64,000 bases of DNA. Origin: Gammaproteobacteria bacterium. Its GTDB lineage: Bacteria; Pseudomonadota; Gammaproteobacteria; Pseudomonadales; JAUIET01. A model generated the notes under the pieces. It was not told the DNA's origin and searched no databases. It was given only the letters and a program-made list of their open reading frames with translations. Shown here piece after piece: positions 12,252-28,909 of the stretch. Numbering within the stretch: the first letter of the stretch is position 1; the number at the start of each line of letters is the position of its first letter. The translations under genes and the position numbers were made by a program. The stretch spans positions 124,001 through 188,000 of the forward strand of contig JAUIET010000003.1 of NCBI GenBank assembly GCA_030429735.1. Reading direction: 5' to 3'.

Positions 12252-12489
12252 GTTGCACAATCCTTTGCACAATAGGGCGAAGCGATTCTTCCTCCGGCTG
12301 GCTACGTTGCATCATCCACGCGTAGATTTCAGTGTCTTCGCAGGCCAGTAGTGCCCGGTAAGCGTGCTGCTGCTCTTCAGTCAAATTAGCGTATTGCTGC
12401 TCAACAAAGGGCACCAGAATCAAATCCAGTTCCAGCATTCCGCGCCGACTGTGCCAGTAAACCCGGCGGGCTTCTTCATCGCTGGCCAT
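12223..12489 (-). CDS. sdhE: FAD assembly factor SdhE
   Basis: SdhE helps attach FAD covalently to succinate dehydrogenase. The RGMLELDLIL motif, including the conserved RGxxE, is at residues 17-26 and the acidic LLACEDTEIYAWM region follows. With ATG 12489 (AAGGA upstream) the protein is 88 residues, the family length; longer frames from 12618 are not supported. It is paired with ygfX downstream and diverges from ygfZ, whose start lies 96 bases away. Confidence 0.93.
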   Translation of the reverse strand: MASDEEARRVYWHSRRGMLELDLILVPFVEQQYANLTEEQQHAYRALLACEDTEIYAWMMQRSQPEEESLRPIVQRIVQHANTPRDLS

Positions 12490-12585
12490 TGCTGCTAATC
12501 CTTGGGAAAGATGCGCTATTATAACCGACTCAACACTGCCAAGGTGTGCGAAGCTGAAGATTCGTACCCGTACCGAAGAAGCTGA

Positions 12586-13482: not shown

Positions 13483-14933
13483 CGCACAACTTTCAACCAC
13501 TCGCCTGCTTTTGGTTCGCCATAAGGGTAGTAACCATTCATCAATCGCAGCTCTTCTTCAGCGAACTTCTTGATCGGGCTTTGCTCGGCCAGTTTCGCAA
13601 ACGTTGTGCCGGGAGGTACTTGCTGCCAGGTAATGTGCCTGGATAGTGCTATGTTCTTCTCATAGTCATTGAGTGGTCGAAAGCTCCAGAACGTTGCCAT
13701 AAACAGGGTATCGTAAAAACTGTTCTGTTTGTCTTTATCAACCTGAGCAACGAACAGGAATGCGCGCTTCTTGTGAAACATCACCGCTACCCGTCGCTCG
13801 GGGTACTTATCAGATGCCGGAACACGGCCTGTATATCCTTTCACTGTGTCAGAATCCAGCGACTCACCATCAATCAAATTGCTGAATCCACGCGACTCCT
13901 TCAGGTACTGCTCAGGGGACACATCTTCTTTCAGTTTCTTGACTCGCATCTGAATCACCGCCCCATCACTTGGACCACGCGCCTGAATAATTGAGCCCCG
14001 GCTTTTAATCTTCCAACCGCTTGGGTAAGCCAGCGTGAAGTCCATCGGTCGGTTTAAATAACGGCTACCATTGGTTCTCGTCACCAGCGGGTAATCTTTA
14101 AACTTGAATCCTTCCATTTGGCGTTCAAATTCGCCGTCCAGGCCACGGCTAACCTGTCCTTCCTTAAGCCCCCCCACCTCACGAACCAGATTTTGCAGGC
14201 GTTTATCATTGCGCGGGTGGGTGGAAAACAAGCCGTGATAGCCAGACACTTTACGCCCTTCCTCTTTCGCCTTGAGTCGTTCAAATCGCTCGTGGTCCTT
14301 GAGTGTGGCGATTCCATCAATCATGGCGTCCGGCGGATAACCGGCGGCGAGCAAGTAGCGCGCGCCCGCCTCATCTGCCTCCAGCTCGTTCTCGCGCCCG
14401 TAGCCGGTGACCAACGCGGTACCGGCCAGGCTACCCAAACTGTTGGTCGCGTTGGCTGCTGTACCACTGCCCGTGGTTACACCAACAGCAATGGCTGCAA
14501 TCGTTGACAAGGCTTTGCTCAACCCGGATGCCGTCGACCTCTTTTCCGGGTGGCGGTGCACCAGATGGCCAATTTCATGACCAATTACGCCGGCCAGCTG
14601 CGCCTCCGACTGAATATACGTTAACAACCCGCTATTGATGTAGACGAAGCGCCCCGGTGTTACAAAGGCGTTGATGGTCGGGTCGTTGAGTACAGTGAAT
14701 GTCCATTTCTCATCCGCCATTTCACTCTGCGACACCATCAAATTGCCCAGCTTGCTCACGTACGCTTGCAGTTCCTCGTCTGGGTAACGGCTTTCGCTGT
14801 TCAGCTTTTCGTATGCTTCACGGCCTTGCTTTTCAGCCTTTGATTCCGCAATGGCAATGGGTGAGAAGCCTGAAGTGCTGAAAAGCAGCAAGCATGCAAC
14901 AACTACCAGCCCTTTGTTAAACGCGTTGACCAT
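13479..14933 (-). CDS. M48-family periplasmic zinc metalloprotease
   Basis: A secreted metalloprotease of the BepA-like M48 group. The signal peptide covers residues 1-29; the zinc site is HEIGH at 119-123, with the third ligand expected in ENELEADEAG near 187-196. The C-terminal third (LAYPSGWKIKSRGSIIQARG onward) is an extra domain seen in some M48 proteins rather than the TPR domain of BepA. At 484 residues it starts 16 bases after the lipoprotein gene at 14950, so it may be the last gene of the long envelope cluster. Its substrate is unknown; outer-membrane quality control would be the usual role. Confidence 0.88.
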   Translation of the reverse strand: MVNAFNKGLVVVACLLLFSTSGFSPIAIAESKAEKQGREAYEKLNSESRYPDEELQAYVSKLGNLMVSQSEMADEKWTFTVLNDPTINAFVTPGRFVYINSGLLTYIQSEAQLAGVIGHEIGHLVHRHPEKRSTASGLSKALSTIAAIAVGVTTGSGTAANATNSLGSLAGTALVTGYGRENELEADEAGARYLLAAGYPPDAMIDGIATLKDHERFERLKAKEEGRKVSGYHGLFSTHPRNDKRLQNLVREVGGLKEGQVSRGLDGEFERQMEGFKFKDYPLVTRTNGSRYLNRPMDFTLAYPSGWKIKSRGSIIQARGPSDGAVIQMRVKKLKEDVSPEQYLKESRGFSNLIDGESLDSDTVKGYTGRVPASDKYPERRVAVMFHKKRAFLFVAQVDKDKQNSFYDTLFMATFWSFRPLNDYEKNIALSRHITWQQVPPGTTFAKLAEQSPIKKFAEEELRLMNGYYPYGEPKAGEWLKVVR

Positions 14934-14949: not shown

Positions 14950-15615
14950 CTAGGCGTCGGGAAACATCTGATTTATCTGGCGAGACAGGCTGTTGCATAT
15001 AGACGTTTTGACTCTCGCAATCAGTGGCAGTGGTACAACAACCGCTGGCATGTAGGACGTTCCTTCGGCACTGGCGCTCAGCTCGGCAACGGGCTGGTCC
15101 TGGGTAATATCCCACACTGAAACCTCGTATTCGCCATCATCTTCCCAGGTACCGAACCCGAGGCAACCCGCACCACCAACGCCAATGGAACATGAGATAC
15201 CGCCTGCGCTGTCACCTCGCACAGTTTTACCATCAACCCAGACTATATACTGCAAGCCCATTTTTTTGACTTCTTCAGCGATGATTGGTTTCGCCAGCAT
15301 TGCCTTCAATCGACCAAGTTGCAGTGGCGCAGTTCGCGGCTCGAACCACGGATACAGACGGTCTGCAAACTCGCTCTCTGTGTACACTTGAACGGCATTC
15401 TTGCCTTTGCCAATTTGCTTGCCAATGCAAGACACCACAAAAGGTTCAGTAACAGCGCCGCTGGTGTGCCTGCGCCCCAGGACTGCAATCGATCTATCCG
15501 CTAACAGATCAACGCTGTCGCGTCTGTATTCATCGATGGTGGTCGTTGTGCACGCTGACAGCAAGGCCAAAACTGCCACAGCAAGCAGTCGCACACGGTC
15601 TGCTAGTTTCATCAT
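14950..15615 (-). CDS. Predicted outer-membrane lipoprotein
   Basis: A 221-residue lipoprotein: the lipobox LLSAC puts the lipidated cysteine at residue 22, followed by Thr, so outer-membrane sorting is likely. ATG 15615 has a strong GGAGGGAGA site and overlaps the preceding gene's stop by 4 bases; frames that begin at 15723 lack both. The mature part contains a glycine- and cysteine-rich loop (GISCSIGVGGAGCLGFGTW) and a WDITQ strand typical of small beta-rich lipoprotein domains. I do not recognise the family. It is the penultimate gene of the cluster and probably works with the neighbouring lipoprotein. Confidence 0.8.
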   Translation of the reverse strand: MMKLADRVRLLAVAVLALLSACTTTTIDEYRRDSVDLLADRSIAVLGRRHTSGAVTEPFVVSCIGKQIGKGKNAVQVYTESEFADRLYPWFEPRTAPLQLGRLKAMLAKPIIAEEVKKMGLQYIVWVDGKTVRGDSAGGISCSIGVGGAGCLGFGTWEDDGEYEVSVWDITQDQPVAELSASAEGTSYMPAVVVPLPLIARVKTSICNSLSRQINQMFPDA

Positions 15616-16604
15616 TCTCCCTCCACTTTCTGTGCCGCCCGCCGCTGGCGCTGTTCTCTGGCTTGCAGCCATCGTTCTACGGCCGGTAACGCGCTGAATC
15701 CCGTTGAAAATGCAGCGCCGCAATCACGAAGCGCCATTTGAGTCGCTGCCTGCAGAGCATCTGCTTGTGAGGTCATCATTGCTGACGGTGTTTTGCCATA
15801 GCAGGGCAGATTCCAACGCGTCACGACATCGTCGTTGTTGTCATAAATCACGAAATCGTACTGCAACCAGATTTCGTACACTTTCGTTCTGGTCGATCGC
15901 GGCGTTGTGTATTGCAGGCGTTTAATCTCAGGCACAACGTATAAATCCATATCCCCGGGCCTGTTTTCCGGCTCCAGGGAATCGAGCAAACTAGCTTGCT
16001 GGAACACCGGTGGCAGAACGCGACGCACCATGCGCGCTTGCGCCTCACCCAGTGCAACACGCATCTTCAGTCGCTGCTTACGCTTGTTCTTGGCGTCACC
16101 AGCGTCTTCTGAATTATCGGCCGCCTGTTCCTGTTGCGTAGACTGCGCAGAGCGCGCCGCAGTGGCCTCCGCATTCTCGGGATTTGTGCCCGAGTCAACG
16201 CTCGCTGGCTCATTCGCCGAGGTCTGTTTAGCGCTGCTCTCTGCATCGCTTCCTTTCTCGGCGATTTCTTGCTTACCGCCGTCTGCCTCTTCATCGCCTT
16301 CCTGCTGTTCAGCAGCTTGAGCTGGAGTTTCCTTTTTTGCTTCCTTTTTTTTCGGTTTGTTTTTTTTCTTTTTCTTTTGCTTTACCGGAACATTTTCAAA
16401 TTCCTGATAAACGTATTGTTCAAACTCAGGTGATATGTATATGCCCATGTGGACCGGGGATGGAACAACCAATGGTGTCGGGAACTCTTGTGATACATCC
16501 ACTTCCAGATTGGTAGAGCTGGCACAGCCGGTCAGCAGGCCCGCCAGTATCAACCGCGGTAAATGGAGACTTGAATTGGAATTTCTGGCGGCGATCAAAC
16601 TCAT
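15612..16604 (-). CDS. Predicted lipoprotein with a charged low-complexity linker
   Basis: A 330-residue protein with lipobox LTGC (Cys27). After a short N-terminal region comes a run of Lys, then alternating Glu/Ala/Gln/Ser (about residues 75-180). A folded C-terminal domain follows (about 182-310) with two conserved-looking cysteines (NLPCYGK and LRDCGAA). The linker would let the folded domain reach away from the membrane, across the periplasm or cell wall. No family recognised. It follows the second VWA gene by 77 bases. Confidence 0.8.
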   Translation of the reverse strand: MSLIAARNSNSSLHLPRLILAGLLTGCASSTNLEVDVSQEFPTPLVVPSPVHMGIYISPEFEQYVYQEFENVPVKQKKKKKNKPKKKEAKKETPAQAAEQQEGDEEADGGKQEIAEKGSDAESSAKQTSANEPASVDSGTNPENAEATAARSAQSTQQEQAADNSEDAGDAKNKRKQRLKMRVALGEAQARMVRRVLPPVFQQASLLDSLEPENRPGDMDLYVVPEIKRLQYTTPRSTRTKVYEIWLQYDFVIYDNNDDVVTRWNLPCYGKTPSAMMTSQADALQAATQMALRDCGAAFSTGFSALPAVERWLQAREQRQRRAAQKVEGE

Positions 16605-16681
16605 GCAAATTCCTTTATCATTGCGGGGTGCGGCATACTGTTCATAAGCGTCTTTTCCAGCTGGACATCAAACAATGAATA

Positions 16682-17680
16682 CTATTCCGGCACAAGCCCA
16701 ACGAAACTGCCGCCATTGCGATAGGTCATTTCACGCATCATGGTCGCAAAGCGGGTGGGGCTTGCGCCGGGCCTTACACCACGTCCGGCGATCAAATGCG
16801 GGAAACCAACGGCATGAATGCGCACCAGCCGCTTGCCATCTTCAATTTCGCGGTTAATGCTGTCAATGGTTAGCAAAACACGTTCGATAGATCCGCCGTT
16901 AAAATCATCACCGTAAACAAAGATACTGATTTTCTTACCGGGTTCATAATAGGTTCTGACGGCGGCTTCCAGGCCCTCAACAGGACTACTATTGCTGAAC
17001 GGCGTCCAGTTTTGCAAGCTGCGTATGATTGCGCGGCGTCGATGCGGCTCATCCGTCATCCATTTTTGCCGAAAACGGGTGAACATATAGTTGCCCATAT
17101 CATTCATGATCTGAATTCCTTTTACCTCAGGGTAAACATCCAGCGTGGCAATAATCTCTCGCTGCAAACGTGGCCAGGCGGAATTCACCATCGAACCTGA
17201 GGTGTCAATAATGAAGATCAGGTACTCGCTGTCCACAGGTATACCGCCAATAATGTCGTTGCTGCGCTGTGACGAGTCGCCCAGCAATCGCTGCATTTCC
17301 TCAGTCAATGCCTGTCGTGCGGATGCTAATTCACCGGCAAGCAGAGTATTAGTATCGGCGTCATCATCAGTTGCATTGAATTCACCGCGCAGTACGGTAA
17401 GTTCGCCCTGCAGCTGAGCCACGTACTTTTTGATTTGCGACAATTGCTCGCGTTTTGACAGCAAATCTTCGTTTTCCACACGCGCGTCGCCACGAACCTC
17501 AAACAGCTGCTCTTGTAATTCGGCAATACCCGCCTCGGTAGTCTGAGGCGAGTCCACAACAGCAGCAGGATCCATAATCTTGGTGATCAGGAGCAATAGG
17601 ATAATCGCGCCGAAACCGCAGCAAATGACATCGAGAAACGCGATGTTCATATCGTCACTGCTTCGTTTTCTGAGCCTCAT
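16682..17680 (-). CDS. Membrane-anchored VWA protein with ExbD-like helix (second copy)
   Basis: Order: short basic N terminus, one membrane helix with the FLDVICCGFGAIILLLL pattern (Asp17), a predicted coiled coil (about 50-135), then a von Willebrand A domain from about residue 150 with the metal-site start DTSGS at 159-163. The single helix with an Asp in LDV resembles the proton-relay helix of ExbD/TolR/MotB. ATG 17680 overlaps the first VWA gene by 4 bases and has AAGGA upstream; the protein is 332 residues. The VWA domain should face the periplasm. Role unknown; probably a partner of the ExbB-like protein at 20156. Confidence 0.85.
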   Translation of the reverse strand: MRLRKRSSDDMNIAFLDVICCGFGAIILLLLITKIMDPAAVVDSPQTTEAGIAELQEQLFEVRGDARVENEDLLSKREQLSQIKKYVAQLQGELTVLRGEFNATDDDADTNTLLAGELASARQALTEEMQRLLGDSSQRSNDIIGGIPVDSEYLIFIIDTSGSMVNSAWPRLQREIIATLDVYPEVKGIQIMNDMGNYMFTRFRQKWMTDEPHRRRAIIRSLQNWTPFSNSSPVEGLEAAVRTYYEPGKKISIFVYGDDFNGGSIERVLLTIDSINREIEDGKRLVRIHAVGFPHLIAGRGVRPGASPTRFATMMREMTYRNGGSFVGLVPE

Positions 17681-18762
17681 GGCCAATCCTTGGATGGACT
17701 GAGAAACGAACCGCGCGTTCGAGCGGCAAGATTCCAGTAGGCAGCTGCGGCGATTGGATCGCCCTCCATCGGAGCCAGTATCACGTTAACCGGAATACCT
17801 TCTGGCAAGTTGCGTACTGCTTGCACAAACAGCTTCAGCCGCTTATCGCTGTTCACCTGGCCTGAAGAGGGCTTTTCACCCTGGGTCGGCAACCCGTCGG
17901 TTAACAAAATGATGTTATCCGGGCGAGTGACAAAACCATCGATTGCGTCGAAGGCGTTCGCAAGACTGGTACCACCAGTGGGCACCAGTCGCCTGACCTC
18001 GGCCATCGCCTCTTCCAGTAGCGGCGTATCCGATACGCTGAGCCATTGACCATCTGTACCCTCCAGCACAGATTTCACGTTTGTATTGAACGCGTAGATC
18101 TGATATTCACTGTCTTGAGGAAGCTGCGCCGTTAACCAGTCGACCATAGCAATAACAGATTGCCATTTGGGCGCCCTACGCTGTTCCACCGCGGGTAAAT
18201 TACGAAGCCTGAGGATGTTGACCACAGTTCGGTCCAGCATACTCGAAGAGGCATCCAGCAAGATAAGAATTCGACGCCCGCCCACTCTTAGACCGGTCAA
18301 ATATTGGCGCTCACCTTCACCACGAACAAAGCGAGAGCGTCTTCCCTGTCCTTCAAGATCCGCAGAGCGCAAGCGCTCAAGCTCCTCTTCCAGGGTATTG
18401 ATCTCTGTTTTTAGCTGGTTGATATGCTCAATCTTCGACAGACTGTCGGCATTCTCTTCGGCCAGCTCTTGTTTGAGATTACGAATTTCCTCCACCAGAA
18501 CTTTCGACGCACCGTTTACTTCAACAAGCTCCTGCTCAACAACTTTCCTGGCATTTTTGGCTTCCGCCAGAAGCTCCTCTTCCAAGGCTATATCGCGTTC
18601 CAGTAATCTGACTTCTGACAGCTCGGCATTCGGATTTTCGACAGACTGAGTACTGTCAGCATGTTCAACAATCAGAAAAATCAGTACCACTGCGCCGAAA
18701 CCACAGGACATCACGTCCAAAAAGGACAGATTGAACGTGGTTGTGCTGCGCTTACGCCTCAT
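17677..18762 (-). CDS. Membrane-anchored VWA protein with ExbD-like helix (first copy)
   Basis: A 361-residue homologue of the next gene. The membrane helix at 13-32 reads FLDVMSCGFGAVVLIFL with Asp16; a long coiled coil spans about 45-135. The VWA domain has a complete MIDAS set: DASSS at 170-174, a Thr in TGGTSL and an Asp in LLTDGLP. So it can probably bind a divalent metal and a protein ligand. The start overlaps the preceding gene by 11 bases. The two VWA proteins are likely a heteromeric pair. Confidence 0.86.
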   Translation of the reverse strand: MRRKRSTTTFNLSFLDVMSCGFGAVVLIFLIVEHADSTQSVENPNAELSEVRLLERDIALEEELLAEAKNARKVVEQELVEVNGASKVLVEEIRNLKQELAEENADSLSKIEHINQLKTEINTLEEELERLRSADLEGQGRRSRFVRGEGERQYLTGLRVGGRRILILLDASSSMLDRTVVNILRLRNLPAVEQRRAPKWQSVIAMVDWLTAQLPQDSEYQIYAFNTNVKSVLEGTDGQWLSVSDTPLLEEAMAEVRRLVPTGGTSLANAFDAIDGFVTRPDNIILLTDGLPTQGEKPSSGQVNSDKRLKLFVQAVRNLPEGIPVNVILAPMEGDPIAAAAYWNLAARTRGSFLSPSKDWP

Positions 18763-20119
18763 TCCCTCGTGCTCCGCCAGCGCCTACCACTTCGATCAGC
18801 CGCAACTGCGCTCCGTTTTCTGTCAGCCGTATCACATCGCCTTTTCTAAGCGCGGCCACTTCGCCATTTTGTTGAGACGAGTTGTTGAGCCAGTATTGCT
18901 TGCCATCAAGCGGGATAATACGCAGTTGGCCATTGGCATCACAAGCTAACTCAGCAACCGCCACACTGCCCGATTGTTGCGACCAAACGATGGCGTCACC
19001 CAGACAATCCAGATAGACAGACTTGCCATGAAATGGCCAGGCCGCATTGTCGATCATGAAATGAGTAATTTGACCAACTCCGCGAATCGTATCCGCAGGG
19101 TCTGCAGCACTGGACTGGTTGACTGACGCGAATCCATGGCCATCGCTTTTGTTGGCCGGCAATCGCGTGATAAAAGGCAAGGTAGGTGTGTTAGTACAAA
19201 TTTTTTGTTGATACTTTTCCACAGCCTCAGCTGCGGCGCCTCGTCCCATCGCTTGAATTCTGGCATCCAATCCGGCAAATCCGGGCAATTCTGCCAAGCG
19301 ATGACTGCACAGTATCTGTTCCACCGGGCCAAAACTGTTCAGCCTGTGCTCGAGCTGTTCAAAAAACTTCTTCACGGGCGTCAACATAATGTCCCGTTCA
19401 ATCTTTGCATGGTGCTTGTTCAGTAAATCAAATTGAAAGACAGTGGCACCAGTATTGTTCTGCAGCTTGGCTGGTAGTAAATCCCATAGCTGTTGCTCTA
19501 TGGCCGCATCGTGCAGGGGGTCGAATCGACACTGCTGAATAAACGCATCCGCAATTATCCGTACCCACTGCTCGTACAGGTCAATGAGACCAAATCCATC
19601 GATACTCATGGTACCGGTGCGCTGGACATACCCATCGGAAAACTCGAAGCCGCCAATGGCCATCTGATGCAGTTGCAGGTCACAGAACACTCCAGATGTC
19701 GCCTGATCAGCAGTGCTCGCCATAGCCACGGTTTGATCCAATAGGCCCACAGCTTCGAAAGAGCACTGTTTCGCCACGCCAAGCAGCACGGCCATGTGTT
19801 GCTCGTCGTAATTCGGTGGCACGACAAACACGCCACGCTCAAATCCTGTGCTTTGTTGCTGCGCAAACTGCAGAAACTTATACGCCAGGTCAGCATGATG
19901 TCTGGCGAATGGGTTGAGTTCAGGTGTTTCAACCATTGTTAGCTGTTGAATGAAGCGGTTATTTATTTGCAATGGTTGCAAGCGCGCACAGGCACGCGCC
20001 TGTTCGCCAAACAATAGCCCAGTCGACTCAAGCAGCGCGTAAGCTGGGACGCTGGTACTCTCAGCGCCCTGCCAAATTGAGAATTCAATGTCGTTGATTT
20101 CTATCGCTGCGTCGTACAT
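18752..20119 (-). CDS. Degenerate Hsp70/actin-fold protein with FHA-like C terminus
   Basis: A 455-residue cytoplasmic protein. The middle of the N-terminal half reads like the actin-ATPase fold: VPPNYDEQHMAVLLGVAKQC and GLLDQTVAMAS match the Hsp70 pattern VPxxF...A...GL.....N.P.AAA, followed by a DLQLHQMAIGGFEF strand where Hsp70 has DLGGGT. The phosphate-loop glycines are missing, so ATP use is doubtful. About residues 380-450 resemble a worn FHA fold (YWLNNSSQQNGEV..LRKGDVIRL). It lies between the ExbB-like and VWA genes. No named family recognised; the fold call is by pattern. Confidence 0.65.
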   Translation of the reverse strand: MYDAAIEINDIEFSIWQGAESTSVPAYALLESTGLLFGEQARACARLQPLQINNRFIQQLTMVETPELNPFARHHADLAYKFLQFAQQQSTGFERGVFVVPPNYDEQHMAVLLGVAKQCSFEAVGLLDQTVAMASTADQATSGVFCDLQLHQMAIGGFEFSDGYVQRTGTMSIDGFGLIDLYEQWVRIIADAFIQQCRFDPLHDAAIEQQLWDLLPAKLQNNTGATVFQFDLLNKHHAKIERDIMLTPVKKFFEQLEHRLNSFGPVEQILCSHRLAELPGFAGLDARIQAMGRGAAAEAVEKYQQKICTNTPTLPFITRLPANKSDGHGFASVNQSSAADPADTIRGVGQITHFMIDNAAWPFHGKSVYLDCLGDAIVWSQQSGSVAVAELACDANGQLRIIPLDGKQYWLNNSSQQNGEVAALRKGDVIRLTENGAQLRLIEVVGAGGARGNEA

Positions 20120-20155
20120 CTTCCAATCCGGTTCGGTTTATCGGTCACGCGAAGC

Positions 20156-20953
20156 CTAACGTACCTGCAGATGCGGCATCAGGTTTGTGTCACAATACTG
20201 CTGGCTATCGAGTACAAGTCGCTCTTGCATTAATTGCAACTGATGCATCAGAAACATGATCAAAATACTGACCACAAGAGCAACAAAAGTGGAGTTAAAT
20301 GCGACACCCAGGCTACTGGTAACCCCGGAGATATTGCCCTCCACAGCCTGGTGCGCCTGACCAAGCGCTGAGCCAATCCCGCGCACAGTGCCAATAAAGC
20401 CTATCGACGGTATCGCCCAGGCGATGTATCTGACCATCGCCAATTCCGAATCCAGCCGGTCAGCCTCGCTTTCACAAACCTCCTTGATCGACGTAGCAAC
20501 GTCCTGGATGCTTTCAGTTGAACCAAAGCGCTGCAACGCTATCAATAAGGCTCTGGGAAGCAAACTTTGCTTTTCTTCCGGTGGCAATGCTTGCAAGCCG
20601 CGAGAATGATCCCTCGCGTCTCTCGGCAACACGCTGGTGCCAGGGCTGATATTAAGCAAGTTCCGGTCGAGCATTTCTCGCTGCCGACTAATGCTGCGCG
20701 CCTTGTAACCCATAATCGCGATAGCCCATAACGCCAATATGAAGCAGGTTTCCTGTTCGTAGTCTTTGAGCACGACATACAGTGAGCGCGACGGTATATA
20801 TGCGCCGCCTTCTGCCTCCAGGCGTGCCTGCTCCGCGAGCAGCGATTCCGCCTGCGGACGGATCAGACCTACGTACACGGTGTGCACTACAATCACTGCC
20901 AACAACAGGGCGAGCAATTGGTACAAAAATTCACTGCTTACATTATTTTTCAT
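20156..20953 (-). CDS. MotA/TolQ/ExbB-family proton channel protein
   Basis: A 265-residue inner-membrane protein. Helices lie at about 9-30, 71-83, 176-193 and 213-237. The last two carry the family signature, IPSIGFIGTVRGIGSAL and SSLGVAFNSTFVALVVSIL, the proton-channel region in TolQ/ExbB/MotA. In known systems five such subunits surround a dimer of ExbD/TolR/MotB; no normal ExbD gene is here, but the two VWA proteins supply matching helices. The N-terminal periplasmic segment after helix 1 is longer than in TolQ. It is 42 bases after the small secreted protein gene. Confidence 0.9.
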   Translation of the reverse strand: MKNNVSSEFLYQLLALLLAVIVVHTVYVGLIRPQAESLLAEQARLEAEGGAYIPSRSLYVVLKDYEQETCFILALWAIAIMGYKARSISRQREMLDRNLLNISPGTSVLPRDARDHSRGLQALPPEEKQSLLPRALLIALQRFGSTESIQDVATSIKEVCESEADRLDSELAMVRYIAWAIPSIGFIGTVRGIGSALGQAHQAVEGNISGVTSSLGVAFNSTFVALVVSILIMFLMHQLQLMQERLVLDSQQYCDTNLMPHLQVR

Positions 20954-20995
20954 TAGCGCACCTGTTCTCCAATGCTTTTGTAACCGCCATTCATT

Positions 20996-21352
20996 CTAAA
21001 TATCTGCCGGAAAAGAAACGGACAGATCTTCCGAAACTCTCTCTGTTGGCTCAAACCGCTTGGGTGGTGGTTTGTCCGATTGCGCATCGTCAGGTACTTT
21101 TACAGGCCCCTCGCCACTGCCATCATCACCGCCAGCTTGTGGTCGGGTTTTCCCAACCGGAGCTGAACGACCACTTAACTCAACATCGCCTTCTTCCGAT
21201 TCTCCAAGTCCACGATCATCGAGAATAATAAAATCATCATCGTCCTGTGCGATTACCGAATTGCCTGGCAAAAGCGCCAGAACCATCGCTAAGCCAATTG
21301 CCCAAGGCGATTTTTTAGTGAGCATAACGAGCAATTCTGAAGCCAAGGTCAT
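20996..21352 (-). CDS. Small secreted acidic protein
   Basis: Up to 118 residues. A signal peptide (LAMVLALLPGNSVIAQ) is followed by an acidic low-complexity chain (DDDDFIILDDRG, then Gly/Pro/Asp) and a short C-terminal motif ending SVSFPADI. Two ATGs are possible, 21352 (AGAGAG site) and 21325; the second gives 109 residues. The 5' end overlaps the preceding gene. No homology recognised; it may be a small periplasmic adaptor for the ExbB-like protein encoded next. Confidence 0.65.
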   Translation of the reverse strand: MTLASELLVMLTKKSPWAIGLAMVLALLPGNSVIAQDDDDFIILDDRGLGESEEGDVELSGRSAPVGKTRPQAGGDDGSGEGPVKVPDDAQSDKPPPKRFEPTERVSEDLSVSFPADI

Positions 21353-23396
21353 CTCTCTTTTTGTCTGAATAGTCTCGATAGGACAGACGCAATTCTACTT
21401 GCGAGCCGTGCCGCCAACTGGACCCGCGAACAACGTGGTAGTTACTACTCTCTGGCCCAAAGGGGTCAACCTGCTCGCCAGCGGCTTGTCCTGGCGCATA
21501 AAAATCGTGCACCCATTCTGCGACATTACCGCCAATATCATACAAGCCGTGCTGATTCGGAGTGAATTTCGCAACTGGTGCAGTCGCTGCAAAGCCGTCG
21601 TTATAATGTCGAATAACGCGTGACAACATGTAACTTCCGGACGCATCAGCGAAGTTTCCCGCCTTCGGTGGTATAGGCCATTCCTGCCCCCACGGAAATT
21701 TTAAAGTTGTCGAGTCCAATGTGCGGGCCACCCAGGCCCACTCAGCCTCTGTTGGCAGACGATAGCCATTCGCCTCCTTATTGACGGCAACCAGCGCGTC
21801 TTTTTCTATTGTGTACACCGCGTCCAGACCCTGCTCGGCGCTCAACCAGTTACAATACAACGCGGCGTCAATCCAGCTTACCCGAACGACTGGCTGCTGG
21901 TCACCATTCAAACTCTTATCTTGTACACGTTTCGACGAGTGAGCCGATCGAAACTGACGATACTGCGCGTTCGTTACCTCGGTTGTGGACATGTAAAAGA
22001 ATTTCTTCAGTGTTACCTTGCGCAATATCTCGTTTGCCCTTCGCCCCGGTTCACGGCGTGATGCCCCCATAGTAAATAGCCCCGGTTTGAACAGCAGCAT
22101 GGTTTGACCCGCCGGGCTGCTGATTGTGGGTTCAATTGCCGCAAGACGGGCCTGCGCCGGGGTTTGCAGGCTCACGTCGAGTCGTTGTCGAAAGCCTGGC
22201 CGAGGGGTGATTGTTGTCACAAACGGCAAATAGCCTGTCTTGCTCACCCGGATACGGTGAGGAACCGCGGGTAGCTTCAGTACGCCACTGGTGGGTGCTA
22301 CGGCGCGACCGTTGACATCAACGCTAACGCCTTGCGTACCCAGGTTCAATTGAATCTCACCGGTTTGCGCACTCAGCGACAACTCAAGCGAATGCTCACT
22401 GGCCGACGCATAACTGACAGTCTCTCTTTTCTTGCTGAAGCCCTGCTTAAACAATTCAATGTTGTGTGTCTGGTCCGCAGCCAGCGCTAGCTGCAACGGT
22501 GTTTGCCCTCGGTAATCGCCATTGACCAGAACGCCCGCATCATCTGGCCGGCTGCTAAGGTTCAACACCGCGTCTGCGGCTTGTAGCTCAATCGTGCCCA
22601 TTGCATTGGCAACCCCGGCGGTGACCTGCAGTTCTTTTTCCCAGGTTTTGAACTTGTCGAGCTTTAAGCTCACCGTACGCTGGCCCTGAATGAGTTCGCC
22701 CGTGAACGGCGTTACGCCGAGCAACTGTTCACCGGAGAACACCTCGGCTCCTTGTGGACTGGAATCAATACTCAAGCTGGCCCAGGCCGGCTCTAGCTCG
22801 ACTACCAACTGCTGCTTGAAACCACCCCCCAAAACACTCAGGGTCTGCTCCTTGGTAAAGTAGCGCGGATGTGAAAAACTCAATTGCCGGTCACCCGGTG
22901 CTAATAGCACGTTCTGTAAAGGCGTTTCGCCATGCTCTTCACCATCAACAGTGACCATCACCCCTTCCGGTGAACTGCTCACCCGGTACTCATCCGGTTT
23001 ACGCTGCAGTACGTACCGAAATGCCTGCTGACTGTCCTCACCCACATCAAGCTCGGCGTGCAGTGTTTCGAACTCAGGGTGGCTGATCGCTACGGTGTAG
23101 CGCCCAGGAAACATGAGCCGCCGCTCACCCAATAGCAGCTGCAAACCGCCATCAACATTAATTTCCGGATTGTCTACCTGAGCAGTGATTCGAACAGATT
23201 TGGCTTGCATCAACGCAAACAAGAGCAGACCTGCCACGCCAACAACCGGCAACACCACCACCCAAATGCCTCGCTTCACAACTGCCTGCGCTGGCGCCGC
23301 ATCGGGCATTGGCGCAAAATCAACGGGGCTTATATGCGCCTGCGATGAGGTGTTCGGATCGGGCTGTTTACCCGATGTATTAGATGGGTTCGACAC
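21315..23396 (-). CDS. Membrane-anchored PEGA-repeat protein with FGE-like (SUMF1) domain
   Basis: A 693-residue protein with one membrane helix near residues 44-63. Several PEGA-type beta repeats follow (about 65-430; e.g. SSPEGVMVTVDGEEHGETPL and SSPQGAEVFSGEQLLGVTPF). A C-terminal formylglycine-generating-enzyme fold starts near 445 (MGASRREPGR..., YRLPTEAEWAWVAR, GGNVAEWV, VVRGSSW, GFRIAR). The cysteines that make FGE active are absent in the VVRGSSW-GFR segment, so I expect a binding domain. GTG 23396 has GAGGTGG upstream and overlaps the previous stop by 17 bases; an ATG at 23480 would overlap far more. Confidence 0.85.
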   Translation of the reverse strand: MSNPSNTSGKQPDPNTSSQAHISPVDFAPMPDAAPAQAVVKRGIWVVVLPVVGVAGLLLFALMQAKSVRITAQVDNPEINVDGGLQLLLGERRLMFPGRYTVAISHPEFETLHAELDVGEDSQQAFRYVLQRKPDEYRVSSSPEGVMVTVDGEEHGETPLQNVLLAPGDRQLSFSHPRYFTKEQTLSVLGGGFKQQLVVELEPAWASLSIDSSPQGAEVFSGEQLLGVTPFTGELIQGQRTVSLKLDKFKTWEKELQVTAGVANAMGTIELQAADAVLNLSSRPDDAGVLVNGDYRGQTPLQLALAADQTHNIELFKQGFSKKRETVSYASASEHSLELSLSAQTGEIQLNLGTQGVSVDVNGRAVAPTSGVLKLPAVPHRIRVSKTGYLPFVTTITPRPGFRQRLDVSLQTPAQARLAAIEPTISSPAGQTMLLFKPGLFTMGASRREPGRRANEILRKVTLKKFFYMSTTEVTNAQYRQFRSAHSSKRVQDKSLNGDQQPVVRVSWIDAALYCNWLSAEQGLDAVYTIEKDALVAVNKEANGYRLPTEAEWAWVARTLDSTTLKFPWGQEWPIPPKAGNFADASGSYMLSRVIRHYNDGFAATAPVAKFTPNQHGLYDIGGNVAEWVHDFYAPGQAAGEQVDPFGPESSNYHVVRGSSWRHGSQVELRLSYRDYSDKKRDDLGFRIARYAH

Positions 23397-25002
23397 AGCG
23401 AATATCCACCTCAACGGCGTTCGAATCCAAAGGCACAACAAATTCCTTGCGTACGTCGCGATATCCATCGCGAATACCAACCGCTGCGTATCGCCCAGGT
23501 TTCAAATTCAATCGATGCTGCTGAATTGTGCCAAGTCGTGCAATGCGCGGCAAAGAAACCTGCGTGAAGCCATCAGAATGTATCGTGACCGGCCTGGATT
23601 CTCTTGACGCTCGCAACTGTTGTTCCAGAGTGCCGAGTTGAGAGCGCAGGCGCGGGCCAGGTGCCGAAATAGCGCGGCCAGCCGTAACAATCTTCAGTGC
23701 TTTTTGATAAATCTCGGCGTTAGCCAAGCGCAAGGGATCGTTACTCAAGGTTTGCAGCGCCGAGTCCATTTTCAGTCGTTGACGGGCGTAAGCAAGCCGC
23801 TTGCTTGCATCACCGAGCTTGCTATCTATCGTCAACGCAGCCTCATATGCCTCAACGGCAGCAGCCCAGTTCTCCGCAGCCTCGCTGCGCTCAGCAGTGT
23901 CGAAATGCCCAGCCATTGCATTCAGGGCTTGTTCATTTCGCACTTGCTTTATCGCAACTCCGGGTTGCGTTTCATCCGGTTTTAGCCTGGCGGCCGCATT
24001 GAAGGAATCAATCGCCGCCTGGCGACGACCGGCGTCCAGGTTACGATAACCTTCCGACATCAGGCGCGTATAGTCCGCGTCTCGAATTCGATCAGCCAGA
24101 TTACTCATTCGCGGCGTCAAAACATCGCTACGGGCGTCATCCAGCGCCAGCGCATTCGCCAACTGCGTGCGCGCAGCACTTAGGTCACCTTGCTCTTCAA
24201 GTGCGTCGGCTGCTAACAGTGCCACATGTACTTCATCCAATACAGACAGCCGTGCCAGCCCGACGTTGGCATCTTCATTGTCCGGACGAATCGCCAGCAC
24301 TAAATCAAAAGCCTGCCGGGCTGTTTGTGCATCATTGTCAGCAATGGCTTGATTGCCTTGTTGCAAGGCGTCAACAATACGTTGATCGACGCTATCAAGT
24401 AAGGTATCGGCGATGCCAAGCGCTCTTTGAAAGGAATCTGTAGCCTGACTGAATTTGCGCGTTCGATAGAACTGATCTCCTTGCTCAGCAAGTTCCAGAA
24501 TGTTTCCAAACTCTTGCTCACCCCACCGCTGCACCTGCAGCTCCTCCAATTGAAACTGCTTATCCAGCAAGGGTTCAAGCGCCTGCTGAGCCGCTTGCCG
24601 CTCTCGTTCCATTTGCGCTTTTTGCCATGGGCTGCTTTCCGCAGCGGGCGTTTCCACTGCCGCGCTTGCGACGTCGTCGTTCGGATCGCTGGTCGCCTGC
24701 GGCGGCGGCACAACTCTGGGTAGCAAAAAGATGACGGCGAGTGCGAGAACCAGTAGTGCACCAACAGTTGGCAGTATCCAGCCGGGGCGGCCTGCCTGCG
24801 CCCCTAACTCAGTTGCACCCGCTGCAGAGTCAGTTTCCAGCGCGCTGAAATCAAGATCAATCGGCGCAATTTCCTGATACACGCTGTCATGCATGTTCAC
24901 GCCAGCGGCAGATTCCGAGTCGGGTACACGCGCAGAGGCCGCATCGATTCGCTTGGAGCCATTACCGGGGTTGGCCGGTGTATCTGATGGTCTGCGACTC
25001 AC
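23380..25002 (-). CDS. Membrane-anchored TPR protein with C-terminal PEGA-like domain
   Basis: A 540-residue protein. An acidic cytoplasmic N terminus (1-73) leads to a membrane helix at about 75-95, then a helical linker and a row of TPR-type helices (about 150-400, e.g. QQGNQAIADNDAQTARQAFDLVLAIRP). A small beta domain closes it (about 455-540, HRLNLKPGRYAAVGIRDGYRDV), the PEGA pattern also found in the next gene. It begins 1 base after the lipoprotein gene's stop. Likely a periplasmic scaffold; no specific function known. Confidence 0.8.
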   Translation of the reverse strand: MSRRPSDTPANPGNGSKRIDAASARVPDSESAAGVNMHDSVYQEIAPIDLDFSALETDSAAGATELGAQAGRPGWILPTVGALLVLALAVIFLLPRVVPPPQATSDPNDDVASAAVETPAAESSPWQKAQMERERQAAQQALEPLLDKQFQLEELQVQRWGEQEFGNILELAEQGDQFYRTRKFSQATDSFQRALGIADTLLDSVDQRIVDALQQGNQAIADNDAQTARQAFDLVLAIRPDNEDANVGLARLSVLDEVHVALLAADALEEQGDLSAARTQLANALALDDARSDVLTPRMSNLADRIRDADYTRLMSEGYRNLDAGRRQAAIDSFNAAARLKPDETQPGVAIKQVRNEQALNAMAGHFDTAERSEAAENWAAAVEAYEAALTIDSKLGDASKRLAYARQRLKMDSALQTLSNDPLRLANAEIYQKALKIVTAGRAISAPGPRLRSQLGTLEQQLRASRESRPVTIHSDGFTQVSLPRIARLGTIQQHRLNLKPGRYAAVGIRDGYRDVRKEFVVPLDSNAVEVDIRCVEPI

Positions 25003-25003
25003 G

Positions 25004-26272
25004 TTAGCCTCTGTCGTTGCTTAACGCAGGGGCCTCGGCAGCGTTCTGGTCTACGTCAATCGAGAGGTTGGGATTTGTAAGTTCCTGACCGTTCTCTCTT
25101 CGGTATATTTCTCGCAGAAGTTCCCGCCATTGCTGGTATTGGTCTCCCACAGTACCGGTCAGCGTGATGGTCTGGTCTTCTAACTCGATAACCTGCGGCG
25201 TAATGGCCGCCGTTACCGATTCGCTTATTTCTATGAAGTCGGCCTCATGCTGGCCACGTTCCTGACTTTTCTGAATAGCGCTGGTTATCAGCGACGTGCC
25301 AGCGTAAATACCAACACCACCGCCCGCACGGTTCGCACTGCCGCCCTGCCCGATCGCCACAATACTGGCGATCACTGCCGCCGCTCCAGCGATGCCGCGG
25401 CTCATTGAGCTGCGCCGCAAATCGCGAATGGCAACAGCGTGATCATAACTACGTTCACGCCATTCAAGATAGGGTACATCCATCTGCCGATGGAACACTC
25501 CATAGTAGTCCTGCAGCGTATCAACAAACAAATAATCGCGATCGCGAATCTTGCGAACCCGCTGCAGCATCGGGTCAAGTTCCGACGGCAGGCGCTTCAC
25601 TTGGTAAATGCCATCATCATCTTGTTGCAAATGACCACCGAATGCCTCCGGTGAAAAGTCCTGTGCAAATCTAAGCTCAGCCACTGTTCTTATATCACTC
25701 ACGTCCGCAGCACTCAGTTGCTGGCGATATTGCGCAATGTCATTGGAAATTCGGTTGTATATCGATTGGAATGGTTCCTCGTCCACACGCCGTTTTTTGT
25801 AGACAAAATCGCTGATCACCTCGCGGTACTCGCGATCAAACCAGTGTTTGCCAGTACTGTCTTCAACCTTAATTTGCAGCCCAAGACGCTCGCCATCAGA
25901 TTCCAGAATTTTCCCATACACATGCACATCAACTGACGCGATGGTCGACGGTACTACGCGCACTGCACCCCAGTGCCCCGAGCTTTGCATCGTTTCCATC
26001 AGGTTAAATGGCAAGTATCGCGCTTCGCCTTCTCTGACTTCGGGGAATATATTCTGCTCATCGCCGGCTGAATCCAGACCGGGGTCAAATATATTTATCC
26101 CCACATCCAACAGCAAATGCTCAGGTAGCAACTGTTCAGCCACTTCCAGGCTTTTTACTTCCGACGTTTTCACCCGTGTCGTCGAACAGGCCTGCAATAC
26201 AAATGCGCACAGCACGCACACCACAATAGAGCGATTGCGGCGCAGAGATTCATGAAAAGTGCCAACGCTCAT
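25004..26272 (-). CDS. Predicted large lipoprotein of the envelope cluster
   Basis: A 422-residue lipoprotein with lipobox VLQAC (Cys29). The mature chain has an N-terminal LLLDVGINIFDPGL segment, an extended soluble region, a possible small hydrophobic Gly/Ala-rich helix (AGAAAVIASIVAIGQGG) near residue 300 and a C-terminal part with TITLTGTVGDQYQQWRELL. ATG 26272 overlaps the preceding stop by 1 base (TAATG). I do not recognise the family. It sits between another lipoprotein and the TPR gene. Confidence 0.78.
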   Translation of the reverse strand: MSVGTFHESLRRNRSIVVCVLCAFVLQACSTTRVKTSEVKSLEVAEQLLPEHLLLDVGINIFDPGLDSAGDEQNIFPEVREGEARYLPFNLMETMQSSGHWGAVRVVPSTIASVDVHVYGKILESDGERLGLQIKVEDSTGKHWFDREYREVISDFVYKKRRVDEEPFQSIYNRISNDIAQYRQQLSAADVSDIRTVAELRFAQDFSPEAFGGHLQQDDDGIYQVKRLPSELDPMLQRVRKIRDRDYLFVDTLQDYYGVFHRQMDVPYLEWRERSYDHAVAIRDLRRSSMSRGIAGAAAVIASIVAIGQGGSANRAGGGVGIYAGTSLITSAIQKSQERGQHEADFIEISESVTAAITPQVIELEDQTITLTGTVGDQYQQWRELLREIYRRENGQELTNPNLSIDVDQNAAEAPALSNDRG

Positions 26273-27255
26273 TATCGCTGCCCAGCCTTGTATTTGCGGT
26301 ACTCTTCCCAAAGCTTGTCCCGGAGTTCAGGATCTTGCTCGCGCTCAGCTGCTTCGCGAATCTGTCTGGCCACCAGGTCATCGTCATCACCATCGGGAAT
26401 ATCATCAGGCACGGTATTGGTGTTGCCTCGACCCCGATTACCGCCGGATCGCGACCCCGAAGCACCTGCTGCGGTTTCGCCCCCACCGCCAGTGCCGCCC
26501 GCTGATTGAGAACCTGATGGTGGTGGTGGAATTCTGGACTCCTGGCCACCACCCTGCTGGCCACCACTCTTGCCACTGGGGCCTGAGCCATTGCTGCCAC
26601 CGGGTGCGCCGGATTGACCGGGCAAGCCGGGCAAGCCGCCACCCGAACTGCCACCCGCACCAGCCGTCTCCATACCTACTGCACCCGCTTGCCCCGCCAA
26701 AATAATACCGTCGAACACATCAAGCGACGCTTCAAACTCAATATCCAGACCGTCCTGTCCGCCAGACGAGACACCGCCTGAGTCGCTGGCCTCACCTAAT
26801 ACACTGCCGCCACCACTACCTTCCAGACCCGGCAGGCCTTCGATACCCACGTCAAAATCGACGTCTTCCAGCCCTGTTCCAACATCATAGTCGTCGTCAG
26901 TCAACACCCCACCAGTGTCTGTACCACCGTTTGCGCTGGCAGTCTGAGATCCGCCGGTGGACGGCTGAGCATCGGTACCGGCACGGCTGGTGCTAGGTGC
27001 CGGTAGTTCGCTGGCACCACTTTGCGTTGCTGCCGTTGAATCCGCGCCCCCTTCGCGAGTATCACCACTTGACGGCAGAGCCCCGGTAGGTACACCGGCA
27101 ACCGGTGCTGTTGGCATGCCACCAGCTGTCGTTGAACCGGCTGCCGGAGACCCGCTCGAAGGCGGCGAGGATGAGCTGCTGCTGGTCTCTTCTTTGCACG
27201 CAGACAACAGAATCAGCGGGGTCAATAACACTGCAAAGCCAAATTTACTGCTCAT
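26272..27255 (-). CDS. Gly/Ser-rich low-complexity lipoprotein
   Basis: A 327-residue lipoprotein: LLSAC puts the lipidated Cys at residue 20. Nearly the whole chain is Gly, Ser, Thr, Pro and Ala, broken by a short acidic patch (DDDYDVGTGLEDVDFDVG). It ends in a compact charged motif of about 45 residues (DDDDLVARQIREAAEREQDP then LWEEYRKYKAG). The tail is probably the interacting part and the rest a flexible tether. ATG 27255 has GGAG upstream and overlaps the preceding gene by 11 bases. Function unknown. Confidence 0.75.
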   Translation of the reverse strand: MSSKFGFAVLLTPLILLSACKEETSSSSSSPPSSGSPAAGSTTAGGMPTAPVAGVPTGALPSSGDTREGGADSTAATQSGASELPAPSTSRAGTDAQPSTGGSQTASANGGTDTGGVLTDDDYDVGTGLEDVDFDVGIEGLPGLEGSGGGSVLGEASDSGGVSSGGQDGLDIEFEASLDVFDGIILAGQAGAVGMETAGAGGSSGGGLPGLPGQSGAPGGSNGSGPSGKSGGQQGGGQESRIPPPPSGSQSAGGTGGGGETAAGASGSRSGGNRGRGNTNTVPDDIPDGDDDDLVARQIREAAEREQDPELRDKLWEEYRKYKAGQR

Positions 27256-28771
27256 CGTGAGTCTCCGCGTCGGTCGATGCATCTTGTGTTGCCTGGTCGG
27301 CCCGTTGTGCATCGGTCTGAGTTGCCGAATCGGCCTCTGCCACCGTTGTTTTATCCTGCGACGAAGCCTCGCCGGCTGGCGCAGTACGTGCCGCTACCGC
27401 CGGGTAGTAGTAAACATATCGATACTTCATTCCCTCGGTACTCACAGGCTCTCCATCGACAAAACGCGGCCGGAAACGCCGCCCCTTGAGCTCACGCATT
27501 GCGGCTCTGCGCTTTGAGGGAGTTTGCGGATGTTCTTCGATGAAACTGGCATTGCTTACTGACCCAGTGCGCGACAAATCCAGTTCCAGCAATACATACC
27601 CTTGCGCCATGCCCGGCCCAATTGGATCCAGATAATCCACGTAGTCTGCTGCAAAATCGAGCACCGCGGGGGCACCAAACAACTCATCGCGGATTTTGAT
27701 TCTCTGCTCGTCACCACTGAGCAATTCATACGCCTGAGCGTAGGTCTTGATTGCGGACTGACGCTTATTGAAGCGCAGATACCAATCGCCCAACTCTATG
27801 ATCGCTTCGGCTTGTGCTCGTGGACCAACCTCTTCATTGTGCTGGTAGATCTTTACCACTTGCCGTGAGCTGCGCAATCCCGATAGATACCCCTGCGACA
27901 CCAGACGCGTGCCCTGACTGAAGCTGTGGTCACTCTCACGACCACCTATGTTGTGCAGTTGCTCAAGCCGTCGTTGATCTTCCGCTTCCTGCTGCATGAT
28001 ATGCGCCAGGTAAAAATCGGCGACTCGCCTGCCGCGCAATTGCTTGGCCAGGCGCAAGTCAGTTTCACCAAAATTTATTTCGATCACCCGCGAGGCTGCC
28101 GCGAACAGGGATCTTGCCATCTGCAGGTGGTGCACAGGTTGAGGGGTAACGTCTTCGAAAAACGCGTACATATGCCAGCGGGTCAATTTATCAAGCACCG
28201 GCAGCATGCGCTCATCTGTCCAGCCAAAACTCTTGCCATTTATTTCCATCATAAAATGGTGCTGGTCGTCTACCGCTTCCCAATCACCCAGGTGGGCGTA
28301 GCTTTGCACCATGTTTTCCAGCAACGGCAATACACTGGGAGAAAACAGGCCTTCATTGATGCGCCTTATGTGGGCGCTCTGGTTGAATGTCTTGATTGCT
28401 TCTGAGTGGTCGCCCATCTGCTGCTGGGCTTCACCCAAACCTTGCAACGCTTCCGACAGCCGAGGATTGTAGGCTCCAAATTGCGCATGCAATGCCTCAA
28501 CTTCAGCCTGGTACCGCTGCAAACGTTCCTTGGCAGGGCTTGAGACAAACTCAGCGGATGAAAATGGTTCTCCGGTTTCTGTAAGGGGATCAGTCGCTTT
28601 GTCAGCAAGCGAGGTTGTGGCGATTGCAGACGCACTTAGCGCCGCGAGGGCGAGCGACAACATGCTCCGAATAATCACAGAGCGAGGCAGTTCGCCGTCA
28701 CCGGGGCCGCTTAAAACTGTGTTTCTATCCGTGTCCGTCATTGGCGCGATTGTTTTATTGGCAACACCCAT
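27245..28771 (-). CDS. Secreted TPR protein with TonB-C-like domain
   Basis: First gene of the cluster. A signal-peptide-like stretch (SMLSLALAALSASAIATTSLA) precedes TPR-type helices, with the clearest repeat GLGEAQQQMGDHSEAIKTFN. Near the end, YVLLELDLSRTGSVSNASFI and MRELKGRRFRPRFVDGEPV match the TonB C-terminal domain pattern, followed by a Thr/Ala/Gln-rich tail. The start is uncertain: ATG 28771 gives 508 residues, ATG 28741 gives 498 and a GTG at 28819 gives 524; none has a clear ribosome site. A TonB-like domain in a cluster with an ExbB-like protein is suggestive. Confidence 0.75.
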   Translation of the reverse strand: MGVANKTIAPMTDTDRNTVLSGPGDGELPRSVIIRSMLSLALAALSASAIATTSLADKATDPLTETGEPFSSAEFVSSPAKERLQRYQAEVEALHAQFGAYNPRLSEALQGLGEAQQQMGDHSEAIKTFNQSAHIRRINEGLFSPSVLPLLENMVQSYAHLGDWEAVDDQHHFMMEINGKSFGWTDERMLPVLDKLTRWHMYAFFEDVTPQPVHHLQMARSLFAAASRVIEINFGETDLRLAKQLRGRRVADFYLAHIMQQEAEDQRRLEQLHNIGGRESDHSFSQGTRLVSQGYLSGLRSSRQVVKIYQHNEEVGPRAQAEAIIELGDWYLRFNKRQSAIKTYAQAYELLSGDEQRIKIRDELFGAPAVLDFAADYVDYLDPIGPGMAQGYVLLELDLSRTGSVSNASFIEEHPQTPSKRRAAMRELKGRRFRPRFVDGEPVSTEGMKYRYVYYYPAVAARTAPAGEASSQDKTTVAEADSATQTDAQRADQATQDASTDAETHDEQ

Positions 28772-28909
28772 TAAGACCACATTCTGAAGCGTTCGTTCCA
28801 GTTGCTGTAAGCATGCCACAGTGTGCTCAGATATTCATGAACAAAACCTGAATGTTACGCCCCGACAACCATCGGCGCCGACCAATACCGCCCTCGTCAC
28901 GCTCGCGGC

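Follow-up and report, generated by a model that had tools for sequence, protein, structure and literature searches.

The gammaproteobacterial contig JAUIET010000003.1 (GenBank assembly GCA_030429735.1, order Pseudomonadales) carries, within the 64,000 nucleotides analysed here (positions 124,001 to 188,000, hereafter the window), a compact array of genes that probably encodes a machine of the cell envelope powered by the proton motive force. Twelve open reading frames of the minus strand run from position 28819 of the window down to 14950 and are followed by an M48 protease gene (14933-13479). These thirteen genes, numbered 01 to 13 in the order of transcription, form a single conserved array in which neighbours, taken at their listed starts (several start codons being uncertain), overlap or are at most 77 bases apart. 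Genes 01 to 06 code for a TPR protein with a TonB-C-like end, lipoproteins A and B, a transmembrane TPR protein, a transmembrane protein with PEGA repeats and the fold of formylglycine-generating enzyme (FGE), and a small protein; genes 07 to 13 code for an ExbB/TolQ-type protein, an Hsp70-fold protein, the VWA-domain proteins VWA1 and VWA2, lipoproteins C and D, and the protease. A motor of a kind that has already been proposed sits in a conserved seven-gene core, accompanied by up to six accessory genes and by a predicted docking code. An original prediction, made from the letters of the window, had described twelve closely spaced genes of one strand with an adjoining M48 gene, and both the positions of the reading frames and the recurrence of their order elsewhere bear this out.

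The motor subunits

Domains were assigned with Pfam and NCBIfam scans of the array proteins. Gene 07 (20156-20953, on the minus strand like all features below), a core gene, belongs to the MotA_ExbB family (PF01618, 9e-15), as had been predicted, and at E values up to 0.01 the profile of its family retrieves only TolQ chains among solved structures. An alignment with TolQ places two of its threonines in segments of the second and third helices, and each of these putative pore residues, counted like all residues here over distinct family members, is present in 106 of 106 proteins. The partners of this channel subunit would be two further core proteins, VWA1 (gene 09, 17677-18762) and VWA2 (gene 10, 16682-17686), both made of a transmembrane helix, a coiled coil and a VWA domain with a metal-ion-dependent adhesion site (MIDAS). 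Gene 09 matches VWA_2 and VWA_3 in Pfam and gene 10 matches VWA below threshold only (E 0.2); the two family profiles align over 314 columns (hhalign 99.6%), and that of VWA1 finds chiefly coiled-coil chains among solved structures. The helix holds an aspartate, Asp16 in VWA1 (codon 18715-18717) and Asp19 in VWA2 (codon 17630-17632), kept in 113 of 113 aligned VWA1 proteins (three rows being gapped there) and in 117 of 117 VWA2 proteins. The DxSxS signature of the MIDAS is found in 117 of 117 VWA2 proteins at each position, while in VWA1 the counts are 113 D and one A, 114 S and 114 S, with two rows gapped. That the residues required for a proton motor of the 5:2 type are kept on both the ExbB and the VWA side lends indirect support to such a motor. 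The genome has eight MotA_ExbB matches and six ExbD (PF02472) matches; none of these six is on the contig of the window and none is near gene 07. By eye, the VWA helices (FNLSFLDVMSCGFGA, MNIAFLDVICCGFGA) look like the ExbD helices of the same genome (for example VNLTPLIDVVFLLLIFFM, at locus L151).

The idea of a rotor built from VWA proteins on an ExbB-type channel is itself in print. In the accessible part of its text, PMC12204202 (2025) describes vWA homologues, tethered by a transmembrane helix, that co-occur with tolQ homologues where tolR/exbD is absent. They form mostly heterologous pairs and have a transpore helix (TPH) with a conserved aspartate; in AlphaFold 3 (AF3) models that combine TolQ with TPH-vWA pairs, a ring of threonines encloses this aspartate, and the family, that of Idiomarina loihiensis, is mostly one of Proteobacteria and Verrucomicrobia (PMC12204202). 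Genes 07, 09 and 10 fit that description in each feature tested: a tolQ homologue adjoins a heterologous vWA pair, a PF02472 search finds no tolR/exbD gene nearby, and the helix aspartate and the threonine ring of the channel are matched as residue conservation only. The central inference of a motor would therefore be right, but already proposed. The proteins of the window were compared with the Idiomarina loihiensis family by description. For that family, the accessible text of PMC12204202 mentions neither a PEGA-FGE or Hsp70-fold gene nor a lipoprotein or M48 gene, and the word VWA does not appear in the accessible part of PMC12505986, on the evolution of MotAB. No description of the whole module beyond PMC12204202 was found in the open-access literature searched, with subscription journals, preprints, figures and supplements lying outside that search. 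What is added here is the full module and the tail motif of gene 05, which gene 04 shares less strictly. The array had at first been called uncharacterised, which remains correct for its phenotype, not for the concept of its motor.

Conservation across genomes

Profile hidden Markov models (HMMs) were built from 18 loci and the window, taking the best match per locus; an earlier round, in which VWA1 was mixed with VWA2 and lipoprotein C rows were in excess, was dropped. Of the 194 genomes of the order, 44 have VWA1, 43 of these with two or four matches each and the last (G116) with a single partial match (9e-4). The ExbB type (E up to 1e-30) occurs in 43, which are the same 43 that have the VWA pair, and lipoprotein B (E up to 1e-10) in 42, all within the 43; in the cluster genome that lacks a lipoprotein B match (G085) a contig end falls inside gene 04. 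A gathering of ExbB-like and VWA genes across genomes, which the original prediction had set as its own test, is therefore what we find. Farther away, the VWA2 profile, which also picks up VWA1 and some weak partial matches, has matches in 35 of 370 genomes of the class and, at the level of the phylum, in 13 of 397, seven of which belong to a single genus of another class. A search of a plasmid collection with VWA2 gave no match at E 1e-5.

Gene order was followed in the best 80 of at least 580 confirmed stretches encoding a VWA2 relative. These are stretches, not genomes, and many stop at a contig end or at the limit of the 10 kb flank; five (L056, L062, L064, L081, L086) repeat loci used in building the HMMs or share the same VWA2. 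Pseudoalteromonas denitrificans and a Microbulbifer are represented among the 80, and none has an Idiomarina-titled record. All 13 genes are present in 43 of the 80, in the order of the window in 42 of these 43, with gene 13 last in 42 as well; the genes detected are all in order and on a single strand in 77. The seven core genes (lipoproteins A and B, the TPR protein of gene 04, PEGA-FGE, ExbB, VWA1 and VWA2) are complete in 58, and this core persists in another class (four loci, L165-L168): there, and likewise in L169, genes 02-03-04-05-07-09-10 are recognised with their order kept. L195 agrees, and gene 01 was undetected in the four clusters of that other class. The array is flanked upstream by a malate synthase G gene and downstream by ygfZ, which were seen in 0 and 1 of 20 fetched loci, respectively, several loci ending before or inside that distance. 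Since this order is met again in many genomes, unaccompanied by the flanking genes, we take it to be beyond chance.

Duplications are also seen. At two loci (L050, L051) a further, divergent copy of the machine is found, in which six of the 13 genes are recognised (03, 04, 05, 07, 09, 10); both genomes carry an array of the main type too. Nine genomes of the order that bear the cluster have a second lipoprotein B copy elsewhere than in the array, and in the eight of these extra loci that were fetched (L216-L223) no further cluster gene was recognised.

Scaffold, Hsp70-fold protein and tail motif

Gene 05 (21315-23480), also of the core, consists of a cytoplasmic tail, a transmembrane helix, four PEGA stretches (Pfam, 2e-40) and an FGE-sulfatase domain (6e-44), as the PEGA-FGE label of the original prediction implied. 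Its C-terminal segment corresponds, we assume, to the position of the catalytic cysteines in true FGEs, and a cysteine is present there in 0 of the 100 rows that hold the segment, so that a catalytic identity was rejected. All 21 gene 05 proteins scanned match the GldK family of NCBIfam, the best being that of the window, at 132 bits against a cut-off of 350; compared with solved structures, FGE/SUMF1 chains (114 bits) outscore PorK (94 bits), which leaves a specific PorK origin unsupported. Gene 04 (23380-25002), another core gene, has a cytoplasmic tail and a transmembrane helix followed by TPRs (Pfam TPR_2, 6e-7).

The accessory gene 08 (18752-20119) has no Pfam family match. Its AlphaFold model (pLDDT 88.5) has the fold of the Hsp70 nucleotide-binding domain (Foldseek best 6e-17; VIA, Z 27.5 and rmsd 2.7 over 306 residues), in line with the Hsp70-like label it had first been given. 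Two patterns, which we take to be the phosphate-binding loops of Hsp70, are both absent in 101 sequences, 96 of which hold the segments, and gene 08 is for this reason probably a pseudo-ATPase. No signal or transmembrane segment was seen in it. Its C-terminus has weak profile matches (best E 0.0095) to chains that are presumably FHA domains; several lineages have a gene 05 with an additional FHA-like N-terminus, which was cut by hand for the comparison and aligns with the C-terminus of gene 08 over 58 columns (hhalign 95.4% local and 83.8% global, seven other cluster families remaining below 1%). Pfam FHA stays sub-threshold on gene 08 as on gene 05, so that the FHA label depends on those weak profile matches and on this alignment.

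A short motif, [ILV]x[PA]xxFxP, lies immediately ahead of the transmembrane helix in the cytoplasmic tails of gene 05 and gene 04. In the window it reads ISPVDFAP in gene 05 (23310-23333), the proposed docking site for gene 08, and the tail of gene 04 has the motif-like IAPIDLDF (24847-24870), a variant that fails the strict expression. Scored as [ILVM].[PA]..[FY].[PAL], the gene 05 motif is present in 85 of 89 loci of a first set that have gene 08 and in 0 of 10 that do not. Of 99 shuffled tails, 1.4 on average and 7 at most contain it, and of 109 ExbB tails, 1 does; among the four misses (L105, L175, L177, L183), L105 has a one-letter variant, IESVAFQP. With the expression fixed, 31 further loci, 25 of them scorable, showed the motif in 19 of 21 that have gene 08 and in 0 of 4 that lack it, or in 15 of 17 and 0 of 4 once four repeats with gene 08 and motif (L199, L202, L204, L208) are removed. 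In the combined sets, after dropping 8 identical-VWA2 rows (n=116), 96 loci have both, 6 have gene 08 alone, 14 have neither and none has the motif alone. One locus (L212) holds 12 of the 13 genes, gene 08 alone missing, and the tail of its gene 05 is without the motif; it pairs in the VWA2 tree with L210, which has gene 08 and motif, and thus apparently represents a separate loss. When independent pairs are drawn at random, the motif changes with gene 08 in a mean of 3.3 of 4; otherwise it does not differ within the pair, and it never opposes gene 08.

This co-occurrence, together with the shared FHA-like domain, suggests that the products of genes 08 and 05 come together on the cytoplasmic side, where gene 08 may dock on the tail motif. 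PilM and gene 08 are both, we assume, of the actin/Hsp70 superfamily, gene 08 differing in that it matches Hsp70 among the rows listed and has lost its phosphate loops. The likeness to PilM-PilN of type IV pili and to GspL would lie in a cytoplasmic protein binding the short tail of an inner-membrane protein, as PilM binds the cytoplasmic portion of PilN in the accessible text of PMC4471445.

Lipoproteins and accessory proteins

Lipobox-like sites, called by a simple pattern of our own, are found in most members of the four families that had been expected to be lipoproteins: 71 of 90 for gene 02 (lipoprotein A, core, 26272-27312), 79 of 91 for gene 03 (lipoprotein B, core, 25004-26311), 86 of 100 for gene 11 (lipoprotein C, accessory, 15612-16604) and 68 of 93 for gene 12 (lipoprotein D, accessory, 14950-15723). 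Lipoprotein A is of low complexity up to a conserved C-terminal segment (DDDIVARQIREAA...EYRKYK). The AlphaFold model of lipoprotein B (pLDDT 75) has a weakly TolB-N/LptE-like N-terminal domain (Foldseek, LptE 8h1s E 1.5e-3, TolB 4r40 E 5.7e-3, none below 1e-3), followed by long helices, and its family profile has no match among solved structures at E up to 1. The accessory gene 01 (27245-28819) has TPR matches in Pfam (6e-10), as gene 04 does; of the TPR/TonB-C make-up ascribed to it, the repeats stand and the TonB_C end (7.5e-4, 20.4 bits) falls below the cut-off of 24.6. Gene 06 (20996-21352), accessory, encodes a small, disordered-looking protein with a signal-like N-terminus and, like gene 02, a conserved peptide at its end (SED.SVSFP.DI). 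In the rows printed this end, SE.ISEDLSVSFPVDI-like, comes after a variable linker, much as a C-terminal docking tag would. At the end of the array, the accessory gene 13 (13479-14933) is an M48 protease (Pfam, 6e-36), which scores 2.9e-27 against NCBIfam BepA, far below the cut-off.

Mechanism and alternatives

We consider it rather probable that the array makes a proton-motive-force-driven trans-envelope machine of the following kind. Five copies of gene 07 would form a channel of the TolQ/ExbB type, the pore of which would hold the N-terminal helices of VWA1 and VWA2 as an unlike pair, giving 5:1:1 instead of 5:2. Protons shuttling between the pore threonines and the helix aspartates would make the pair turn or swing and thereby move the periplasmic VWA domains. 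These heads would engage, through their MIDAS, a scaffold anchored in the inner membrane, with gene 05 (the dead FGE/PEGA protein) and gene 04 (the TPR protein) as its parts, and would pass the force on to the lipoproteins (genes 02, 03, 11, 12). Where present, the cytoplasmic pseudo-ATPase of gene 08 may gather genes 05 and 04 beside the motor via the tail motif, as in PilM-PilN. Sequence comparison establishes the conservation of the genes and residues, the loss of catalytic and phosphate-binding residues, and the co-occurrence of motif and gene 08, which supports the docking step. The motor step draws on the conserved residues and on the AF3 models in the accessible text of PMC12204202, and the scaffold step on PorK, which has an FGE fold that serves as a docking hub. 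The machine may stabilise the envelope, carry out surface transport or act in adhesion. A proton-powered machine with moving subunits that end in VWA domains is what had been foreseen, and the retained motor residues, with no ExbD gene near that of ExbB, support it.

Several observations weigh against parts of this scheme. The VWA helices look like ExbD helices only by eye, and Pfam ExbD gives no match to the VWA proteins. The ExbB gene comes after VWA2 in L172 and L174, the latter being without lipoprotein B, and L173 is without detected ExbB or lipoprotein B in the fetched stretch. As for docking, the expression was written after the tails of the first set had been inspected, and four loci of the later set are repeats. 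The VWA2 tree, a quick one that flags long branches, requires at least 4 changes of gene 08 and 8 of the motif; with 4 events, a sign test cannot reach 0.05. Finally, the strict motif is present in just 29 of 80 gene 04 tails at loci with gene 08 (0 of 8 without), the window itself having only the variant there.

An unlikely alternative is a Tol-like envelope stabiliser, in which the VWA pair would pull on outer-membrane lipoproteins and so, alongside Tol-Pal, keep the outer membrane in place or constrict it. The TolQ-only structural matches of the channel, the weak TolB match of lipoprotein B, and several lipoproteins with an M48 protease close by would suit it, and a TolQ/ExbB-type channel, lipoproteins and a weak TolB-N-like domain are indeed what the array shares with Tol-Pal and ExbBD-TonB. 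However, Pfam finds no ExbD/TolR or OmpA/Pal family match in genes 01-13, the TonB_C of gene 01 is below its cut-off, and the lipoprotein B fold has no match better than E 1e-3. Furthermore, the genome has other ExbB/ExbD-family genes, one pair of which is TolQ-like by eye, so that a Tol system is probably present already. Membership in Tol-Pal itself was rejected, TolR, TolA and Pal accompanying TolQ nowhere in genes 01-13 save for that sub-threshold TonB_C. Zorya was rejected likewise: its ZorAB has a MotA/ExbB channel, and ZorA2 matches gene 07 weakly (6e-4), the best of only weak PADLOC matches, which is why the array is not called a defence system; ZorB and other Zorya proteins were not found in the ten cluster proteins scanned (all but genes 02, 06 and 13). 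The original prediction had excluded Tol-Pal and Zorya, and these searches agree with it.

Very unlikely, in our opinion, is a machine for surface transport or motility akin to the PorKLMN (GldKLMN) drive of the type IX secretion system (T9SS) and gliding, with a motor that drives a scaffold and an FGE-fold subunit that is structural. The likeness is that a proton motor adjoins an FGE-fold protein devoid of catalytic cysteines, as reported for PorK in the accessible text of PMC12421860, which describes the FGE fold as the docking hub of a machine driven by protons (see also PMC12635249 and PMC5445135, as far as accessible); the GldK matches of all scanned gene 05 proteins go in the same direction. 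Yet these matches are far under the cut-off of the family, which excluded membership in T9SS PorKLMN, and FGE/SUMF1 chains score above PorK. Gene 05 is anchored in the inner membrane and has PEGA repeats, whereas PorK is a lipoprotein; the rotor here would end in VWA domains, and the array is found here in Pseudomonadota. Genome searches for SprA and GldM were without match, control searches being also without signal. On these tests the array is a member of neither Tol-Pal nor T9SS, although it may work like either. Quite unlikely, though worth stating, is that it is a gammaproteobacterial counterpart of the T9SS/gliding drive, in which an asymmetric VWA1-VWA2 rotor would move a dead FGE and PEGA scaffold that carries or displaces surface lipoproteins, gene 08 assembling it from the cytoplasmic side by means of the peptide motif. 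A sensor or regulator, the ExbB and VWA proteins being a proton-gated signalling device whose state an FHA-like domain of gene 08 relays to the cell, is highly improbable: the FHA-like domain in gene 08 or gene 05 and the Hsp70 fold without signal or transmembrane segment would suit it, but FHA scores are weak, genes 01-13 have no kinase family match, and the core is intact in loci without gene 08.

Surroundings of the array

A promoter scan found 8 candidates for a chance mean of 10.4, and a terminator scan 21 for a mean of 16.9 (sd 4.0), neither being clearly above chance. Elsewhere in the window, a large protein (31255-33738, minus strand) has two Radical_SAM stretches and a CofH_C domain (Pfam), presumably a fused CofG/CofH, FbiC by name; its make-up points to F420 biosynthesis in this genome. 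Within 11748-12618 (minus strand) an SdhE gene (PF03937) overlaps that of a membrane protein of the Cpta_toxin family (PF07254).

Significance

A proton-driven trans-envelope machine of this design would be widespread, its ExbB type being present in 43 of 194 genomes of the order and relatives of VWA2 in at least 580 stretches (not counted by genome), and it probably spends the proton motive force on the envelope. As the module is compact and lies among unrelated genes, its function is within reach of a few deletions. If the counterpart of the T9SS drive were true, it would represent a new class of envelope machine that transmits force, with secretion, surface motion or adhesion as its task. 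More generally, the array provides an asymmetric rotor of two parts, whose heads are VWA domains rather than peptidoglycan-binding ones, along with a pseudo-chaperone that has a predicted docking peptide.

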